NCBI RefSeq assembly: GCF_014472415.1
Contig: NZ_JACSZV010000001.1
Span: forward strand, 124,001 to 188,000
Direction of reading: 5' to 3'
From: Pseudomonas sp. N40(2020)
Lineage (GTDB): Bacteria > Pseudomonadota > Gammaproteobacteria > Pseudomonadales > Pseudomonadaceae
Length of the DNA: 64,000 nt
Below are positions 28,793-49,096 of this stretch, piece after piece. Positions within the stretch are counted from its first letter, which is position 1. Each line of letters opens with the position of its first letter. The translations under genes were made by a program, and so were the position numbers. Below the pieces are notes generated by a model, which was not told where the DNA came from, searched no databases, and saw nothing but the letters and a program-made list of their open reading frames with translations.

Positions 28793-30391
28793 TTAATCGA
28801 TACTGACACCCGAGAACACGTTGCGGCCGAAGGGGCTCACCTTGAACCCTTCAACCCGGGTGCTTAACGGCTGGTTGACCGTCGAGTGGGCGACAGGCGT
28901 GATCGGCACTTGCTGCTTGAGCAACTGCTGGGCCTGTTTATAGAGCGTGGTGCGCTGGTCGCGGTCGGTGACGACCTTGGCCTCTTTGATCAACTTGTCG
29001 TAAGCCGGATCGCACCACATGGAGTAGTTGTTGCCGCCAATGGCGTCGCAGCTGTAAAGCGTGCCGAGCCAGTTGTCCGGGTCACCGTTGTCACCGGTCC
29101 AGCCGATCAGGCTGATGTCGTGCTCGCCGTTCTTGGTGCGCTTGATGTACTCGCCCCATTCATAGCTGACGATCTTCACTTTCAGACCGATCTTCGCCCA
29201 GTCAGCCTGGAGCATCTCAGCCATCAGTTTGGCGTTCGGGTTGTACGGACGCTGTACCGGCATTGCCCACAGGGTGATCTCGGTGCCTTCTTTGACGCCG
29301 GCAGCCTTGAGCAGCTCTTTGGCTTTTTCCGGGTTGTAGGCTGCGTCTTTGATCGTGTCGTCGTAAGACCATTGGGTCGGTGGCATGGCGTTGACGGCCA
29401 GTTGGCCGGCGCCTTGATAAACAGCGTTGAGAATCCCCTGTTTATTCACCGCCATGTCCAGCGCCTGACGCACTTCGAGCTGGTCGAACGGTTTGTGCCG
29501 AACGTTGTAGGCGATGTAGCCGAGGTTGAAGCCGGGCTTGGAGATCAGTTGCAGCTTTGGATCGGTCTTCAGCGCTTCAACATCGGCAGGGCGCGGATGC
29601 AGGGTGACCTGGCATTCACCAGCCTTGAGCTTCTGCACGCGCACCGAAGCGTCGGTGTTGATCGCGAAGATCAGGTTGTCGAGTTTTACCCGGCTCGGAT
29701 CCCAGTAATGTTTATTAGCTGTGTAACGGATGTTCGAGTCTTTCTGGTAGCTCTTGAACACGAACGGCCCAGTGCCGATCGGCTTCTGGTTGATGTCGCT
29801 CGGCTTGCCTTCGGCCAGCAGTTTGTCGGCGTATTCGGCAGACAGGATGGCGGCGAAGCTCATGGCGATGTTCTGGATGAACGCGGCGTCGACGCTGTTG
29901 AGCGTGAACTCTACGGTCAGCGGCCCGGTCTTCTCGACCTTGGCGATGTTCTTGTTCAGGCTCATCCCGTTGAAATACGGGAACTCGGTCGGATAAGCCT
30001 TACGGAAAGGCTGTTGTGCATCAAGCATGCGATTAAACGTAAACAACACGTCGTCGGCGTTTAAATCGCGGCTCGGCTTGAAGTACGGCGTTGTATGAAA
30101 TTTCACACCTTCACGCAGGTGAAAGGTGTACTTGAGACCATCCTCGGAAATATCCCACTTGGTCGCCAGGCCAGGGACGACATTGGTCGCGCCTTTTTCG
30201 AACTCGACCAAACGGTTGTACAGCGGCTCGGCGGCATCGTTATCGGTAGCCGTCGTGTATTGCGCGGTATCAAAACCCGCCGGGCTGCCTTCGGAGCAGA
30301 AAACCAGGCTTTTGGGTGCGGCGAAACTGGCTGACGAGACGGTCAACAGACCGGCACCCAGCAATGCGGAAAAAACCAAGGTATGGCGCAT
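28793..30391 (-). CDS. Peptide ABC transporter substrate-binding protein (DppA3-like)
   Basis: A 532-residue periplasmic DppA/OppA-family protein. Signal peptide VFSALLGAGLLTVSSASFA, cut before APKSLVFC. Family marks are SEGSPAGFDTAQYTTATDN, YTFHLREGVKFH, KPIGTGPFVFKSYQKD and IGWTGDNGDPDNWLG. It is very close in sequence to the next paralogue (30694) and precedes the porin gene, as dppA3 precedes opdP in P. aeruginosa. A 176-bp gap to the porin start suggests its own or a weakly coupled promoter there. Confidence 0.9.
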   Translation of the reverse strand: MRHTLVFSALLGAGLLTVSSASFAAPKSLVFCSEGSPAGFDTAQYTTATDNDAAEPLYNRLVEFEKGATNVVPGLATKWDISEDGLKYTFHLREGVKFHTTPYFKPSRDLNADDVLFTFNRMLDAQQPFRKAYPTEFPYFNGMSLNKNIAKVEKTGPLTVEFTLNSVDAAFIQNIAMSFAAILSAEYADKLLAEGKPSDINQKPIGTGPFVFKSYQKDSNIRYTANKHYWDPSRVKLDNLIFAINTDASVRVQKLKAGECQVTLHPRPADVEALKTDPKLQLISKPGFNLGYIAYNVRHKPFDQLEVRQALDMAVNKQGILNAVYQGAGQLAVNAMPPTQWSYDDTIKDAAYNPEKAKELLKAAGVKEGTEITLWAMPVQRPYNPNAKLMAEMLQADWAKIGLKVKIVSYEWGEYIKRTKNGEHDISLIGWTGDNGDPDNWLGTLYSCDAIGGNNYSMWCDPAYDKLIKEAKVVTDRDQRTTLYKQAQQLLKQQVPITPVAHSTVNQPLSTRVEGFKVSPFGRNVFSGVSID

Positions 30392-30650
30392 GACGCTCCC
30401 TCTTTTTTAGTGTTGTTCGATGCGCCGCGATCCCGTCCGGGGATGTTGTGGCTGCATCAAGCTCAAACCAGTACGGACAGCAAAACCGTTAGCCCACACA
30501 GTCACTGGTCAGAACCCGACGGTAGGGGCCGTGGATCTGGCAGTAAATGCGTTGAGTCCTAAAGACTCGTAGGAAAAGGCAACACATCCTGTACCACTCT
30601 GTTAAGGCAGGGCGGAAACAGATGTAGGCAAATTCCTAGGCAATCGGCAG
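30392..30650. other. Intergenic stretch upstream of dppA3-like gene
   Basis: About 260 bp, presumably with the promoter of the minus-strand gene at 30391. I see no coding frame, repeat-family member or clear operator in it. Confidence 0.4.
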
Positions 30651-30688
30651 AAAAAAACAGCGGCGACGCTGGAAACGTCGCCGCTGTG
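30651..30688 (-). terminator. Intrinsic terminator of dppA2-like gene
   Basis: ACAGCGGCGACG / CGTCGCCGCTGT perfect 12-bp stem with a seven-base loop; on the minus strand it is followed by seven T residues. Confidence 0.93.
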
Positions 30689-30693
30689 TCTTT

Positions 30694-32319
30694 TTATTTG
30701 CTGACGCTGACGCCGTAGAAGGAGTTCAAGCCAAATGGGCTGATCTTGAAGTCCTGCACGTTGGCGCGCATGGGTTGATACACCGTCGAGTGAGCGATAG
30801 GTGTCATTGGGACTGCATCTTTGAGGACGTGTTGCGCCTGTTTGTACAGTTCGGTGCGCTTGCCCTGATCAGTGGTGCGCTTGGCTTCTTTGACGAGGCC
30901 GTCGAACTTCTTGTCGCACCATTTGGAGAAGTTGTTGCCGCTCAGCGAGTCGCAGCCAAACAGAACATTGAGCCAGTTGTCCGGATCACCATTGTCACCG
31001 CTCCAGCCAATGATCATGGCTTGGTTCTCGCCACCTTTGGAACGCTTGATGTACTCGCCCCATTCGTAGCTGGTGATCTTCACTTTCAAGCCGATCTTGG
31101 CCCAGTCGGACTGGAGCATTTCAGCCATCAGCTTGGCGTTCGGGTTGTACGGACGCTGCACCGGCATCGCCCACAGGACGATCTCGGTACCTTCCTTGAC
31201 GCCGGCTTCCTTGAGCAGCTGCTTGGCTTTCTCAGGGTCGTACTTGGCATCCTTGATGGTGGTGTCGTAAGACCACTGGGTCGGCGGCATGGCGTTGACG
31301 GCCAATTGGCCAGCGCCCTGGTAAACCGAATCGATGATCTGAGGCTTGTTGACAGCCATGTCCAGCGCCTGACGCACGCGCAGGTCGGCCAGCGGGTTCG
31401 CTTCGTTGCTGCCCTTGACCTTGTCCATCACGTTGTAGGCGATGTAGCCCAGGTTGAAACCAGCCTGATCAGGCATCTTCAGCGACTTGTCTTCTTTCAG
31501 CGCTTTCAGGTCGGCTGGACGCGGGAACAGGGTGACCTGGCACTCGTTCTTTTTCAGCTTCTGAATGCGTACCGACGGGTCGGTGGTGATAGCGAAGATC
31601 AGGTTGTCGATCTTCACGTCTTCAGGCTTCCAGTAGTCCTTGTTCCCGGTGTAGCGGATGTTGGAGTCTTTCTGGTAGCTCTTGAACACGAAAGGACCAG
31701 TGCCGATCGGCTTCTGGTTGATGTCGGCAGGCTTGCCATCCTTGAGCAGCTGGGCAGCGTACTCGGCGGACTGAACCGAAGCGAAGCTCATGGCCATGTT
31801 CTGGATGAACGCAGCATCAACTTCTTTAAGGGTGAACTTGACGGTGTGGTCGTCGACTTTATCGATCTTGGTGATGTTGGTGTCCATCCCCATGTCGGTG
31901 AAGTACGGGAATTCGGTCGGGTACGCCTTACGGAACGGGTCATCCTTGTTAATCATGCGATTAAAGGTGAACAGCACGTCGTCGGCGTTGAACTCACGAG
32001 TCGGCTTGAAATACGGGGTGGTGTGGAACTTGACGCCTTCACGCAGGTGGAAGGTGTAAGTCAGGCCGTCATCGGAAATGTCCCACTTGGTCGCCAGACC
32101 AGGAATCACGGCGGTGCCGCCGCGTTCGAACTGGGTCAGACGGTTGAACATGGTTTCGGCTGAGGCGTCGAAGTCGGTTCCGGTGGTGTACTGGCCCGGA
32201 TCAAAACCGGCCGGGCTCCCTTCGGAGCAAAACACCAGGTTAGTCGCAGCGGATGCGAAAGGTGCGGAGGCTAACAAGCCTGCGCCGACTAAAAACGGAA
32301 TGACCGCGTGTTTAAGCAT
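30694..32319 (-). CDS. Peptide ABC transporter substrate-binding protein (DppA2-like)
   Basis: A 541-residue periplasmic DppA/OppA-family protein. Signal peptide VIPFLVGAGLLASAPFASA, cut before ATNLVFC. Family marks are SEGSPAGFDPGQYTTGTDF, YTFHLREGVKFH, KPIGTGPFVFKSYQKD and IGWSGDNGDPDNWLN. I use ATG 32319, just after ATGAGGCCAAC; the upstream extension of 43 codons has no signal-peptide character. Its own terminator follows and a 260-bp gap precedes it, so it is probably transcribed alone. Confidence 0.9.
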   Translation of the reverse strand: MLKHAVIPFLVGAGLLASAPFASAATNLVFCSEGSPAGFDPGQYTTGTDFDASAETMFNRLTQFERGGTAVIPGLATKWDISDDGLTYTFHLREGVKFHTTPYFKPTREFNADDVLFTFNRMINKDDPFRKAYPTEFPYFTDMGMDTNITKIDKVDDHTVKFTLKEVDAAFIQNMAMSFASVQSAEYAAQLLKDGKPADINQKPIGTGPFVFKSYQKDSNIRYTGNKDYWKPEDVKIDNLIFAITTDPSVRIQKLKKNECQVTLFPRPADLKALKEDKSLKMPDQAGFNLGYIAYNVMDKVKGSNEANPLADLRVRQALDMAVNKPQIIDSVYQGAGQLAVNAMPPTQWSYDTTIKDAKYDPEKAKQLLKEAGVKEGTEIVLWAMPVQRPYNPNAKLMAEMLQSDWAKIGLKVKITSYEWGEYIKRSKGGENQAMIIGWSGDNGDPDNWLNVLFGCDSLSGNNFSKWCDKKFDGLVKEAKRTTDQGKRTELYKQAQHVLKDAVPMTPIAHSTVYQPMRANVQDFKISPFGLNSFYGVSVSK

Positions 32320-32525
32320 GTTGGCCTCATGATTTGTTGTCATTTTTTGATTTGAGGTACGACCTCGTGAGTCGTGCCTGCGGATACTTATGCAGGCGCC
32401 ATACCCAATGCAAGATCCAGAGCGGTCGGTGGCCTCAAACGGTGGCACGAACGTACCTTAATGTCGCATCTGTATAACTTTTGACGCATTTGACCGTTTG
32501 CGGGTGGTTTTTACGGTGCAAATGA

Positions 32526-32573
32526 AGCCCCAAAATGGTGCGCGGTTCAGGCTGTGCGCGCCGCCTTGGGGCT
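32526..32573 (-). terminator. Probable terminator of dppA1-like gene
   Basis: GCCCCAA ... TTGGGGC outer pair with an inner GGTGCGCG / GCGCGCC pair. It lies 6 bp from the gene's stop. The T run is short, so this is less certain than its neighbours. Confidence 0.6.
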
Positions 32574-32578
32574 CGGTG

Positions 32579-34180
32579 TTACTTATTTATACCCACGCCG
32601 TAAAAGGGGGTTAGACCAAAAGGGCTGATACGGAAATCAGTGACTTCTTTGCGCAGTGGTTGGAACACCGTGGAGTTGGCAATCGGGGTGATCGGCACCT
32701 GCTGCTTAAGGATCAGTTGCGCCTGTTGATACAGTTTTACCCGCTGCGCTTTGTCAGTGGACACCTTGGCCTGTTGCACCAGTTTGTCGTAGGCCGGGTC
32801 GCACCATTTGGCGTAGTTGCTGCCTTTCACCGCCGCGCAGCTGTAAAGCACGCCGAGCCAGTTGTCCGGATCGCCGTTGTCGCCGGTCCAGCCGTAGATC
32901 ATCGCGTCGTGTTCGCCGTTCTTGGCGCGCTTGATGTACTCGCCCCATTCATAGCTGACGATGTTGGCCTTGATGCCGATCTTCTCCCAATCCTGCTGGA
33001 TCATCTGCGCCGACATCCGCGCATTCGGGTTCGAGGCGCGCTGCACGGTCATTGCCCAAAGGTTGATGGTTGTACCCGGTGCAACCCCTGCTTCTTTAAG
33101 TAGCGCCTTGGCCTTTGCCGGATCGTGCGGCGCGTCCTTGATGTTCGGATCGAACGACCATTGCGCCGGCGGCAAAGCGTTCTGGGCCAACTGGCCGGCA
33201 CTCTGGTAAACGGCTTTGATGATCGCCGGTTTGTCGATGGCCATGTCCAGGGCCTGACGCACTTTGAGCTGGTCCAGCGGCGGGTGAGTGGTGTTGTAGG
33301 CGAGGAAGCCAAGGTTGAAACCGGCCTGTTTCAGCACGCGCAGATTTGGGTCTTTTTCCATCACTTCGATGTCGGCGGGGCGCGGGTAACCGCTGACCTG
33401 GCATTCGCCGGTTTTGAGTTTTTGCAGGCGTACGGCGGCGTCCGGGGTGATCGAGAAAATCAGGTTGTCGATCTTTACATCCTCGGGTTTCCAGTAGGCC
33501 GTGTTCGCGACGTAGCGGATTTGCGAATCTTTTTGATAGCGCTTGAACACGAACGGGCCGGTGCCGATCGGTTTCTGGTTGAGGTCGGCGGCTTTGCCTT
33601 CCTTCAACAGTTGCGCGGCATATTCGGCGGACTGCACCGAGGCGAAGCTCATGGCGAGGTTTTGCACGAAGGCGGCGTCGACGTTGTTGAGGTTGAAACG
33701 CACGGTTTGCGCGTCGAGTTTTTCGACTGATTTGATGGTGGTGTTGAGGCCCATGTCGGTGAAATACGGGGACTCGGCGGGGTAGGCCTTGCGGAAGGCG
33801 TTTTCCGGGTCGAGCAGGCGTTGGAAGGTGAAGAGGACGTCGTCGGCGTTGAAGTCGCGGGTTGGGGTGAAGTATTCCGTTTTGTGGAATTTCACGCCTT
33901 GGCGCAGGTGGAAGGTGTACTGCAGGCCATCCGTTGAGACGTCCCATTTTGTGGCCAGGCCGGGTTCGATGTCGGTGCCGCCGCGTTTGAATTGGGTGAG
34001 GCGGTTGAAGACGGTTTCGGCGGAGGCGTCGAAGTCGGTACCGCTGGTGTATTGGCTGGGGTCGAAGCCTGCGGGGCTGGCTTCGGAGCAGTAGACCAGG
34101 GTTGTGGCGGCGTTTGCTATCGGGGCGGTTGTGGCCAGGGCCAGCGAGATCAAAAGCGGTTTGAGGGTGGATCTTGGCAT
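32579..34180 (-). CDS. Peptide ABC transporter substrate-binding protein (DppA1-like)
   Basis: A 533-residue periplasmic DppA/OppA-family protein, first of the cluster in transcription order. Signal peptide LLISLALATTAPIANA, cut before ATTLVYC. Family marks are SEASPAGFDPSQYTSGTDF, YTFHLRQGVKFH, KPIGTGPFVFKRYQKD and YGWTGDNGDPDNWLG. In P. aeruginosa the dpp region also has dppA1, dppA2, then a dipeptidase and the regulator psdR before dppA3; those two genes are not present between the paralogues here. Confidence 0.9.
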   Translation of the reverse strand: MPRSTLKPLLISLALATTAPIANAATTLVYCSEASPAGFDPSQYTSGTDFDASAETVFNRLTQFKRGGTDIEPGLATKWDVSTDGLQYTFHLRQGVKFHKTEYFTPTRDFNADDVLFTFQRLLDPENAFRKAYPAESPYFTDMGLNTTIKSVEKLDAQTVRFNLNNVDAAFVQNLAMSFASVQSAEYAAQLLKEGKAADLNQKPIGTGPFVFKRYQKDSQIRYVANTAYWKPEDVKIDNLIFSITPDAAVRLQKLKTGECQVSGYPRPADIEVMEKDPNLRVLKQAGFNLGFLAYNTTHPPLDQLKVRQALDMAIDKPAIIKAVYQSAGQLAQNALPPAQWSFDPNIKDAPHDPAKAKALLKEAGVAPGTTINLWAMTVQRASNPNARMSAQMIQQDWEKIGIKANIVSYEWGEYIKRAKNGEHDAMIYGWTGDNGDPDNWLGVLYSCAAVKGSNYAKWCDPAYDKLVQQAKVSTDKAQRVKLYQQAQLILKQQVPITPIANSTVFQPLRKEVTDFRISPFGLTPFYGVGINK

Positions 34181-34827: not shown

Positions 34828-34922
34828 TCGCTTTGGCTGTTTAAAGAGCTGTCGAATTACCAGAACCTTCCCACAAGGTTTTCAGGTTGTCCGTCGGACG
34901 TGCGATCTCTAGGCTTGGGTTG

Positions 34923-35160
34923 TCGCTGAATGTTCAGCGATCGGGTGTGAGAACCCGGCAATTCATAGTCATTCAGTGTTCATGCCCGCATAATTGCCGC
35001 CAGCCAATCCGCTGCATGCAAATGCGTTATGGCGGCTCTGTGCGGGCAGACTTATGTCTGGCCGGGTGCCTATGACCGGTTTTCTCACCCCGCACAAAGC
35101 TGCCACCTCTTCGCCGTGTGAGAAACGGCAGGAGATGGCTCAACTTCATAGGTGAAACGC
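34923..35160 (+). ncRNA. Structured 5' leader of the DUF6124 gene (candidate regulatory RNA)
   Basis: A 240-nt stretch with many exact pairings. TCGCTGAA / TTCAGCGA (34923-34940) is a hairpin. CAGAC-TTAT-GTCTG (35047-35060) is a hairpin inside TGTGCGGG / CCCGCACA (35039-35046 with 35089-35096), inside GGCGGCT / AGCTGCC (35031-35037 with 35098-35104, one G-U). Two pairings compete with these: GCCGCCA (34996-35002) with TGGCGGC (35030-35036), and ACCCGGC (34953-34959) with GCCGGGT (35061-35067). Short frames run through it, including 30 codons from 35029, but the pairing is the dominant signal. It ends at the ribosome site of the DUF6124 gene. Confidence 0.5.
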
Positions 35161-35523
35161 ATGACTAAGCCTGTACCCGATCCACCCGAAGAAAAACCAA
35201 CCCCCCTCGAAGAAGCCCTCCGCGCCGAAGACCTGGCCCGAAACCGCGAAGCCATCAACCGCGCCCTCGATTTCTATCTCTGTCCCCAACCCAGAAAACC
35301 GCGCCAACCGAGCACGATGTTCATGGTCTGTCCCAACGTCGACACTGAAAGTCTGCTCGCCCATGCCTGTGAATCACTGGCCTCTGCCAGCGCCGCAGCC
35401 AGCAACTTCGCCAACGAGTTGGGTGGCACGCAGCGCAATACGGTGCTCGGTATTCAGCAGATCATCATGCTGGCCGAACTGGCGGTGAACCGGGCGCTGG
35501 ATCGGGTTGATCCGCAGACTTGA
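35161..35523 (+). CDS. DUF6124 family protein, unknown function
   Basis: A 120-residue protein of a small pseudomonad family of unknown function. It begins MTKPVPDPPEEKPTPLEEAL, a proline- and acid-rich start typical of the family. It then has FMVCPNVDTESLLAHACESL and the conserved helical part GGTQRNTVLGIQQIIMLAE and LAVNRALDRVD. No signal peptide or membrane helix. I take the ATG at 35161; a GTG 9 bp upstream overlaps the ribosome site (TAGGTGAAACGC). It follows a long, highly paired leader, which suggests RNA-level control. Single gene. Confidence 0.85.
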   Translation: MTKPVPDPPEEKPTPLEEALRAEDLARNREAINRALDFYLCPQPRKPRQPSTMFMVCPNVDTESLLAHACESLASASAAASNFANELGGTQRNTVLGIQQIIMLAELAVNRALDRVDPQT

Positions 35524-35655: not shown

Positions 35656-35693
35656 AAAAAAACCGGCGATCATGCTCTGATCGCCGGTTTTTT
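35656..35693. terminator. Bidirectional intrinsic terminator
   Basis: AAAAACCGGCGATCA / TGATCGCCGGTTTTTT with a short loop, between the convergent DUF6124 and SIMPL genes. Confidence 0.92.
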
Positions 35694-47542: not shown

Positions 47543-49096
47543 ATGCAGTTGATTGAACATTCCGACTCGCCGCGCTACATCCGCCTGCACGAGCGGGACA
47601 ACGTCGTGGTTGTGGTCAATGACCAGGGCGTACCGGCCGGCACTGAATTCGCCGATGGCCTGGTGACGCTGGATTTTGTGCCGCAAAGCCACAAGGTCAC
47701 TCTGGAGGACATTCCCGAGGGCGGCCAGGTGATTCGCTACGGCCAGATCATCGGTTATGCCTTGCAGCCGATCCGCCGTGGCAGTTGGGTCAAGGAAGAT
47801 CAACTGCGCATGCCGACCGCGCCGCCGCTCGACAGCCTGCCGCTGTCGACCGAGGTGCCGGACGCTCAGGCACCACTGGAAGGCTTCACCTTCGAGGGTT
47901 ATCGCAACGCCGACGGCACCGTCGGCACGCGCAACATCCTGGGCATCACCACCACCGTGCAATGCGTGACTGGCGTGCTCGATCACGCGGTGAAACGCAT
48001 CAAGGAAGAACTGCTGCCGAAGTACCCGCACGTCGATGACGTAGTCGCATTGACCCACAGTTACGGCTGCGGCGTGGCGATCACGGCCACCGATGCCTAC
48101 ATCCCGATTCGCACCGTGCGCAATCTGGCACGCAACCCGAACCTGGGCGGCGAGGCGTTGGTGATCGGTCTGGGCTGCGAGAAATTGCAGGCCGGGCAGG
48201 TGATGCACGAGGACGATGCTTCGGTGGATCTCAGCGAGCCGTGGCTGTATCGCTTGCAGGATTCCAGTCACGGTTTTACCGAGATGATCGAGCAGATCAT
48301 GGAACTGGCTGAAGTCCGCTTGAAGAAACTCGACCAGCGTCGCCGCGAAACCGTGCCAGCGTCCGAGCTGATCCTCGGCATGCAGTGCGGCGGCAGCGAC
48401 GCGTTCTCCGGCATCACCGCCAACCCGGCGCTGGGATACGCCTCGGACTTGCTGCTGCGCGCGGGGGCGACGGTGATGTTTTCCGAAGTCACCGAAGTGC
48501 GTGATGCGATTTATCTGCTGACTTCCCGCGCCCAGACCAAGGCTGTCGCCGAGGAACTGGTGCGCGAGATGGACTGGTACGACCGTTATCTGGCCAAGGG
48601 CGAAGCGGATCGCAGCGCCAACACCACGCCGGGCAACAAGAAGGGCGGGTTGTCGAACATTGTCGAGAAGTCGCTGGGTTCGATCGTCAAATCCGGCAGC
48701 AGCGCGATCAATGGCGTGCTTGGCCCGGGTGAGCGGTTCAAGCAGAAGGGGCTGATTTTCTGTGCGACGCCGGCCAGTGATTTTGTCTGCGGCACGTTGC
48801 AGTTGGCGGCAGGGATGAACCTGCATGTCTTCACCACGGGTCGCGGCACGCCGTATGGCTTGGCGATGGCGCCGGTGGTGAAGGTCTCGACGCGTACTGA
48901 ACTGGCGCAGCGTTGGCCTGACTTGATCGACATCGACGCCGGGCGGATTGCCACCGGGCGCGCGACGATCGAGGAGTTGGGCTGGGAGTTGTTCCACTAC
49001 TACCTGGCCGTGGCGAGCGGCAAGCAGCAGACGTGGGCGGAGAAGCACAAGCTGCATAACGACATTACGTTGTTCAATCCGGCGCCGATTACCTGA
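47543..49096 (+). CDS. garD: Galactarate dehydratase GarD
   Basis: A 517-residue cytosolic dehydratase of the UxaA/GarD family that converts galactarate to 5-keto-4-deoxyglucarate, the substrate of KdgD. Visible are the N-terminal SAF-like domain (residues 1-90, [17 protein letters not shown]), the segment [20 protein letters not shown], and the metal-site region HSYGCGVAI and [11 protein letters not shown] with conserved Cys. Later segments are [19 protein letters not shown] and [19 protein letters not shown]. Spacing of 11 bp from the transporter gene with GAGGAG before the ATG confirms the operon. It ends just before a family C repeat. Confidence 0.95.

Follow-up and report, generated by a model that had tools for sequence, protein, structure and literature searches.

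The question raised by this locus is what kind of RNA the strongly folded leader of a small DUF6124 gene encodes, and how that RNA bears on the gene. The window, meaning the whole 64,000-nt stretch of Pseudomonas sp. N40(2020) DNA that was analyzed, carries the leader at 34923-35160. The initial annotation read it as a cis RNA without description, of the riboswitch, thermosensor or attenuator type. Our analysis suggests instead, with a probability of roughly 0.8, that the leader and its gene together make up a self-silencing module like immI (c4) of phage P1, with a C4 antisense RNA that appears to be made for shutting off translation of the gene behind it. The C4 class itself is already known; what is new is the scale and the addressing, with about 45 gene-plus-silencer units in this genome, each having a different pairing address.

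Anatomy of the leader and its place in the C4 class

Two Rfam families matched the leader on the + strand by cmscan: the C4 antisense RNA (RF01695) at 35025-35110, with 70.9 bits and an E value of 8.5e-12 against a cut-off of 45, and c4-a1b1 (RF03163) at 34909-34961, with 47.3 bits against a gathering cut-off of 46.7. They were the only families above the Rfam cut-offs in the 64-kb window (isrK gave 22.1 bits against a cut-off of 50), and no described riboswitch or thermometer family matched above cut-off there. Judged by its sequence, the leader has all the parts of a C4 antisense RNA module: C4, a1b1, a2 and b2 are laid out as in phage P1. It is thus a described class, and this part of the initial annotation does not hold; the available text of Weinberg 2010 (PMC2864571) has a table that gives C4 for Proteobacteria and phages and c4-a1b1 for gamma-Proteobacteria and phages. 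The features are as follows.

34887..34915, + strand: putative promoter (TTGTCC, 17 nt, TAGGCT), directly 5' of the a1 hairpin; read by eye
34909..34961, + strand: c4-a1b1 element (RF03163), with a hairpin at 34923-34940 and then a hairpin at 34942-34957 that holds a1 (34943-34954); cmscan
34963..34972, + strand: b1, TCATAGTCAT, which includes TCATAG and pairs with the b' loop; pairing scores
35025..35110, + strand: C4 antisense RNA, with P1 (35030-35046/35089-35105), P2 (35047-35060) and P3 (35061-35065/35076-35080); cmscan, covariation
35066..35075, + strand: b', the P3 loop GTGCCTATGA, which is the address; pairs with b2, own target ranked 1 of 45
35079..35091, + strand: a' region GTTTTCTCACCCC at the P3/P1 junction; pairs with a1 and a2
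35118..35125, + strand: a2, GTGAGAAA; pairing with a'
35146..35154, + strand: b2, TCATAGGTG, with the Shine-Dalgarno AGGTG (35150-35154) of the DUF6124 gene; pairing with b'
35161..35523, + strand: DUF6124 gene (PF19619), 120 aa; hmmscan 89.3 bits, E 1.5e-25
35660..35691, + strand: terminator-like hairpin and T run 3' of the DUF6124 gene; read directly, missed by the terminator scan

The C4 core in the window spans 35030-35105, and the ATG of the DUF6124 gene lies six bases 3' of the end of b2. The predicted fold of 34923-35160 reaches -103.3 kcal/mol against -78.4 +/- 4.9 in shuffled sequences (z -5.07, 0 of 200 shuffles as good); the exact complements that had been reported in this leader are all present and non-random. 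The nested stems at 35031-35104 with CAGAC-TTAT-GTCTG are the C4 helices P1 and P2. The ACCCGGC/GCCGGGT complement is an arm of the a1 hairpin competing with an arm of P3, and the pairing of 34947-34958 with 35076-35088 (GTGAGAACCCGG with CCGGTTTTCTCAC) is that of a1 with a'. The mutually exclusive helices are therefore real and set P1/P2 against the a1-a' pairing. The complement of GGCGGC with an upstream GCCGCC lies outside the C4 model and is kept in three relatives. The P3 loop b', its partners b1 and b2, and the a2 site at 35118 come in addition to what had been noticed before. The GGC at 35031 is like the processing motifs described in the available text of PMC5320573.

The putative promoter 5' of a1 is absent from the consensus hits of the promoter scan. 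A TTGT..-TA...T-like arrangement can be recognized by eye at its position in many of 42 rows from the same genome, at least one of which (C20_278613) is misplaced; this suggests a single promoter for the whole unit. About 35 nt 5' of the C4, at 34985-35005, CATAAT followed by GCCGCC is conserved in relatives L050-L052, and the promoter scan listed a promoter-like site at 34966-34994 that overlaps this region, which is possibly a second promoter serving the C4 only. The P1 record has no promoter annotated at the matching position. A 53-aa ORF starting with TTG (34994-35155) overlaps the C4. Another short ORF, MAQLHR (ATG at 35136 to TGA at 35156), was considered as an icd-like translational coupling device and rejected because its ATG is missing in L050 and L052 and is not kept as such in L051.

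Class membership was examined further by aligning 106 C4s to the C4 model, a fit that leans towards that model: 96.8% of the cells were paired and 21 of 26 pairs showed double changes. The 403 double-change cells compare with 83.9 +/- 14.1 in shuffles (0 of 500 as high), and slid versions of the alignment were at most 48.0% paired. Covariation thus backs helices P1, P2 and P3, and the structured RNA tied to DUF6124/DUF3077 genes that the initial annotation proposed stands. A model built from 45 C4s of the window's genome alone recovers the annotated C4 of phage P1 (50.4 bits, E 1.4e-8).

The comparison with the C4 of P1/P7 was made on the P1 sequence (AF234172), where a1 is at 48255-48261, b1 at 48269-48276, C4 at 48343-48419, a2 at 48423-48429, b2 at 48452-48459 and the icd start at 48470. 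From the loop and targets of P1, b' can be identified with the P3 loop and a' with the P3/P1 junction. The two systems share the fold, the order a1-b1-C4-a2-b2-gene, the placing of b2 on the ribosome-binding site and the complementarity of loop and target. In the window leader the a1-b1 targets were found upstream (RF03163 above cut-off, and pairing scores) and a2-b2 downstream with b2 at the ribosome-binding site, so that every C4 feature open to testing at this level appears to be present. The Pseudomonas modules differ from P1/P7 in that they are chromosomal and occur in dozens of copies whose addresses differ, in that the b' loop facing the Shine-Dalgarno is highly variable, and in that the downstream gene is DUF6124 or DUF3077 rather than icd/ant. 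The icd and ant genes of the P1 immI operon were not found downstream of the window's leader, where the next gene matches DUF6124 only.

Spread of the module and its gene family

The genome of the window contains 47 C4 matches above cut-off, together with 43 DUF6124 and 3 DUF3077 matches, one DUF3077 overlapping a DUF6124 match. For 40 of the 47 C4s a DUF6124 (38) or DUF3077 (2) match follows on the same strand at a distance of -9 to +236 nt; C52_13939, among the 38, is a degraded fragment. Besides the degraded C24_38237, five of the remaining seven precede an ATG ORF of at least 60 codons, and the ORFs behind these five are absent from the genome-wide Pfam lists. In a second species, genome G010, a C4 stands upstream of 29 of 30 DUF genes (28 DUF6124, from the 29 that the genome holds, and 2 DUF3077), and among named Pseudomonas genomes the same is true for 77 of 80 DUF6124 loci, these being the best 80 of 127 candidates, with the candidates themselves numbering at least 127. 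The initial annotation was therefore right that leaders like this one are also found ahead of other DUF6124/DUF3077 genes of Pseudomonas.

Among 59 genomes of the genus, C4 was found in 54 (0-54 copies), DUF6124 in 47 and DUF3077 in 45, and the C4 counts, obtained by a search with stricter filters, followed the sum of DUF6124 and DUF3077 counts with a Spearman coefficient of 0.935. The five genomes without C4 have neither DUF6124 nor DUF3077. Six of the 59 carry 1-3 C4s without any DUF6124 or DUF3077 match, and the C4s from two of these six precede a different ORF of 53-55 aa (L212, L213). Beyond the genus, 228 other genomes were covered at class level; 11 of them contain C4, each with 1-4 matches. 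We found no link between C4 RNAs and DUF6124/DUF3077 in the titles and abstract openings of the literature searched, a scope outside which most subscription papers fall.

DUF6124 genes lacking a C4 match were four in the window's genome (L053-L056) and L085, L144, L146 and L183 elsewhere. Three of these have an RF03163 a1b1 element, namely L053 (G000 C41:1-2000; 46.2 bits, just below 46.7), L144 (56.8 bits) and L146 (52.7 bits), and they look like loci that lost the C4 and left the gene without its own silencer. L085 has a remnant resembling the 3' half of a C4. In L055 (G000 C44), a PrrF sRNA (RF00444, 152.6 bits) occupies 1843-1990, just 3' of a DUF6124/DUF3077-like gene without a C4 match.

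The DUF6124 protein was modeled by AlphaFold2 as three helices (pLDDT 88.3, pTM 0.51). Foldseek with this model returned nothing at E <= 0.001 in the PDB or among viral models, the best match in a PDB sequence search had an E value of 0.52, and none of 77 members matched NCBIfam. Four proteins were searched against PHROGs: the window protein gave a best E of 0.15, and one DUF3077 relative matched phrog_36471 (unknown function) at E 4.7e-10. In PADLOC-DB two families were each weakly matched by 1 of 77 relatives. The genes around the module encode SBP_bac_5, SIMPL and a histidine kinase. The window also holds tandem paralogous stretches at 28803-34180, each 70-76% identical in DNA to the relatives' counterparts of the others; this would fit a series of SBP_bac_5 transporter genes adjoining the module (32579-34180 scanned). 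In the literature searched, the only paper found on DUF3077 was PMC9630843, whose available text reports a base insertion in the DUF3077 pseudogene PP_RS01475 of a furfural-tolerant P. putida line.

Predicted pairing of each C4 with its own gene and change of the address

We scored the ungapped complementarity of each b' loop to the 32 nt before each start codon. Over 45 loci the mean score of a loop with its own b2 was 19.16, against 11.38 (sd 2.56) for the crosses, and the maximum of 20000 permutations was 13.46; the own target ranked first for 28 of 45 and within the top three for 36, the other 9 ranking below third. This comparison left out C60_22237 and C52_13939, for which the script found no ATG ORF, and the P3 loops of C42_9611 and C18_27720 were set by hand. 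The three other pair classes, each with n = 45 after leaving out C52_13939 and C24_38237, which were judged degraded, behaved alike: b'/b1 scored 16.80 against 10.66 (permutation maximum 12.30), a'/a2 18.06 against 12.71 (14.24) and a'/a1 19.76 against 15.53 (17.17). Two negative controls on unrelated stretches were flat (10.18 against 10.57 and 10.61 against 10.78). Kinship of the copies is expected to raise the cross scores and thus works against this result.

The second species behaved in the same way. With 25 of the 29 C4s of G010 (L097, L095, L083 and one of the two in L070 were left out for want of a scripted ATG ORF), b'/b2 scored 21.38 against 11.51 with a permutation maximum of 15.04, and the own target came first for 22 of 25; b'/b1 gave 17.34 against 10.55, a'/a2 17.24 against 12.86, a'/a1 18.96 against 14.84 and the control 10.04 against 9.97. 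In L095 of this genome the C4 abuts the DUF6124 match. Since all four pairings coevolve copy by copy, the C4 is addressed chiefly to its own gene. Some addresses are shared: G010 has the same loop in two C4 pairs (both C4s of L070; L087 and L091), so addresses are not always unique. The a' segment is common within subfamilies, and for a'/a2 the own target ranked first for only 18 of 45.

Outside the genus, 16 of the 17 C4s listed (the G266 locus was left out) gave 19.81 against 12.78 for b'/b2 and 17.81 against 13.15 for a'/a2, with a permutation maximum of 16.44 for both. Addressing of the own gene therefore looks general for C4, and the expansion with DUF6124/DUF3077 is what is special here. 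Ten downstream proteins, one of them from inside the genus, were scanned: Rha, Bro-N (two) and a SymE-family protein were found, ORF6C and CsrA matched below cut-off, and the other four matched nothing.

The b' loops of the 45 C4s in the window's genome not judged degraded are all distinct. In five tandem pairs the genes are 92-99% identical in DNA, yet b', b1 and b2 differ. The C32 pair has 100% identity in the protein and in P1-P2 and 97% in the promoter-a1 stretch, but only 60% in the loop and 52% in the b2 stretch; in the C39 and C14 pairs the P1-P2 arm has diverged too (61%), and the change of address is less focal there. Among 44 loci, the 14 protein pairs with at least 85% identity had a mean loop identity of 46% and a P1-P2 arm identity of 81%, compared with a loop identity of 34% (sd 14) for the other 932 pairs. 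At the window's own locus, beside the SBP_bac_5 and SIMPL genes, ten genomes (L176 left out) carry seven loops; most of the flanks are 85-92% identical, and the upstream flank of L136 and of L141 reaches only 72%. Loops are shared there between the window and P. koreensis L119, between L124 and L148, and between L125 and L127. The module is most likely a self-silencing gene, the silencing by analogy with P1, with a private address that would change fast.

Instead of fast local change, recombination among addresses that already exist might underlie the turnover of addresses, an account that is quite plausible, if somewhat short of even odds. Loops do recur at other loci, which makes such exchange possible: 57 of 77 loops are distinct, with GTGTCCATAA and TTGCCTGCT each seen 5 times and TTGCCTACTTA 4 times, and identical loops appear at different loci and in different species. 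The proteins at the window's locus vary as well (68-93% identity to the window protein). Short patches differing inside otherwise near-identical units, as in the C32 pair, speak for local change, and so does the comparison of the window with L050, where most of the differences fall in b1, b' and b2 and the sequence around them is conserved.

Other readings, proposed mechanism and meaning

The main targets of the C4s could lie in trans, among phage or other host mRNAs, as has been put forward for Acinetobacter baumannii (PMC5320573, available text), with pairing to the adjacent gene being secondary. The loops are variable and some recur across loci and species; C4 is an antisense RNA on the P1 ant mRNA (PMC12197685, available text); and insulation in silico is imperfect, 18 of 45 targets having at least one non-cognate loop that scores as high as their own. 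We nevertheless regard a mainly trans role as unlikely, given that every pair class tested scored higher on average within its own locus than across loci (four classes in each of two species, two classes outside the genus), and that b' changes in step with the local b1 and b2.

Less likely still is that the modules are what is left of P1-like prophages in decay, without present function. C4 is a phage immunity RNA, some C4s outside the genus precede phage-type genes (Rha, Bro-N), and one phage record has a DUF6124 gene and a C4 beside prtR. Against this stand the open reading frames and coevolving pairs kept in about 45 copies, a tblastn search with the window protein that matched a single record among 50,697 from phages and none among 72,556 from plasmids, and the SBP_bac_5, SIMPL and histidine kinase genes as neighbors. 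The phage record is that of phage DVM-2008 (L110, EU982300), with a C4 of 89 bits (model R1) and the only DUF6124 gene found in a phage record.

A leader sensing a ligand or temperature through mutually exclusive folds, as riboswitches, thermosensors and attenuators do, would suit the strong folding and the competing pairings in one transcript and is highly improbable, because only C4 and c4-a1b1 reach the Rfam cut-offs, the competing pairs include C4 target pairs, the paired segments vary from copy to copy yet stay complementary, unlike a conserved aptamer, and no terminator-like site is listed within the leader (the scan listed only 34339, 34452 and 36154 and, having missed the hairpin at 35660, is a limited test).

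For the self-silencing module, the course of events in P1 suggests the following. A single transcript would run through a1-b1, C4, a2-b2 and the DUF6124 gene, and RNase P would cut out the C4 RNA, about 77 nt long. Its a' and b' would pair with a2 and b2, cover the Shine-Dalgarno and stop translation of DUF6124; a1-b1 would be the same target offered upstream. Release of C4 by RNase P and the translation block at the ribosome-binding site are described for P1/P7 in the available texts of PMC5320573, PMC8198154 and PMC12197685, which cite Citron and Schuster 1990. The copies may have been selected to escape one another's C4, so that each gene would retain a private off-switch and be expressed only if the matching C4 is absent or overrun.

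The Group 1 C4-like sRNAs of A. baumannii AB5075 resemble these modules in that one genome has many of them (21 similar sequences), in that they seem to be processed from longer transcripts, and in their variable loop; they differ in that the available text of PMC5320573 describes them as sRNAs with possible host or phage targets elsewhere and describes no cognate downstream gene or pairing with their own ribosome-binding site.

A further likeness is to type I toxin-antitoxin modules such as SymE/SymR, in which an antisense RNA encoded with a small gene blocks its translation. C4 too is encoded beside the small gene that it would silence, the difference being its place 5' of the gene in the same orientation and its predicted release from the gene's own transcript. 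DUF6124 is not known to be toxic. One C4 module (L199, in G148) stands before a SymE-family gene (PF08845, E 7.4e-13); the antisense RNA usually described for SymE is a different one.

The pattern of addresses fits selection against cross-silencing of paralogues, or an immunity-type recognition role. In a speculative and rather doubtful extension, Pseudomonas genomes would hold dozens of chromosomal 'address-locked' genes, each silenced by its own C4, and the hypervariable address would diversify in a species group as immunity or incompatibility alleles do; such genes (or their mRNAs) would be expressed only in cells without the matching address, for example after transfer to a naive strain, and the array would amount to a strain-specific immunity or recognition code in antisense RNA.

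The C4 RNA, a classical phage immunity RNA best known from P1/P7, is here the regulatory half of a small-gene family, with up to 43 DUF6124 copies and 54 C4s per genome in our sample and dozens of largely self-directed antisense channels per cell. This gives DUF6124/DUF3077 a starting regulatory logic, makes the C4-like sRNAs of A. baumannii worth re-examining for targets at their own loci, and provides coevolved RNA pairs as a natural library in which antisense specificity can be studied. It also raises the question of what drives such change of address.
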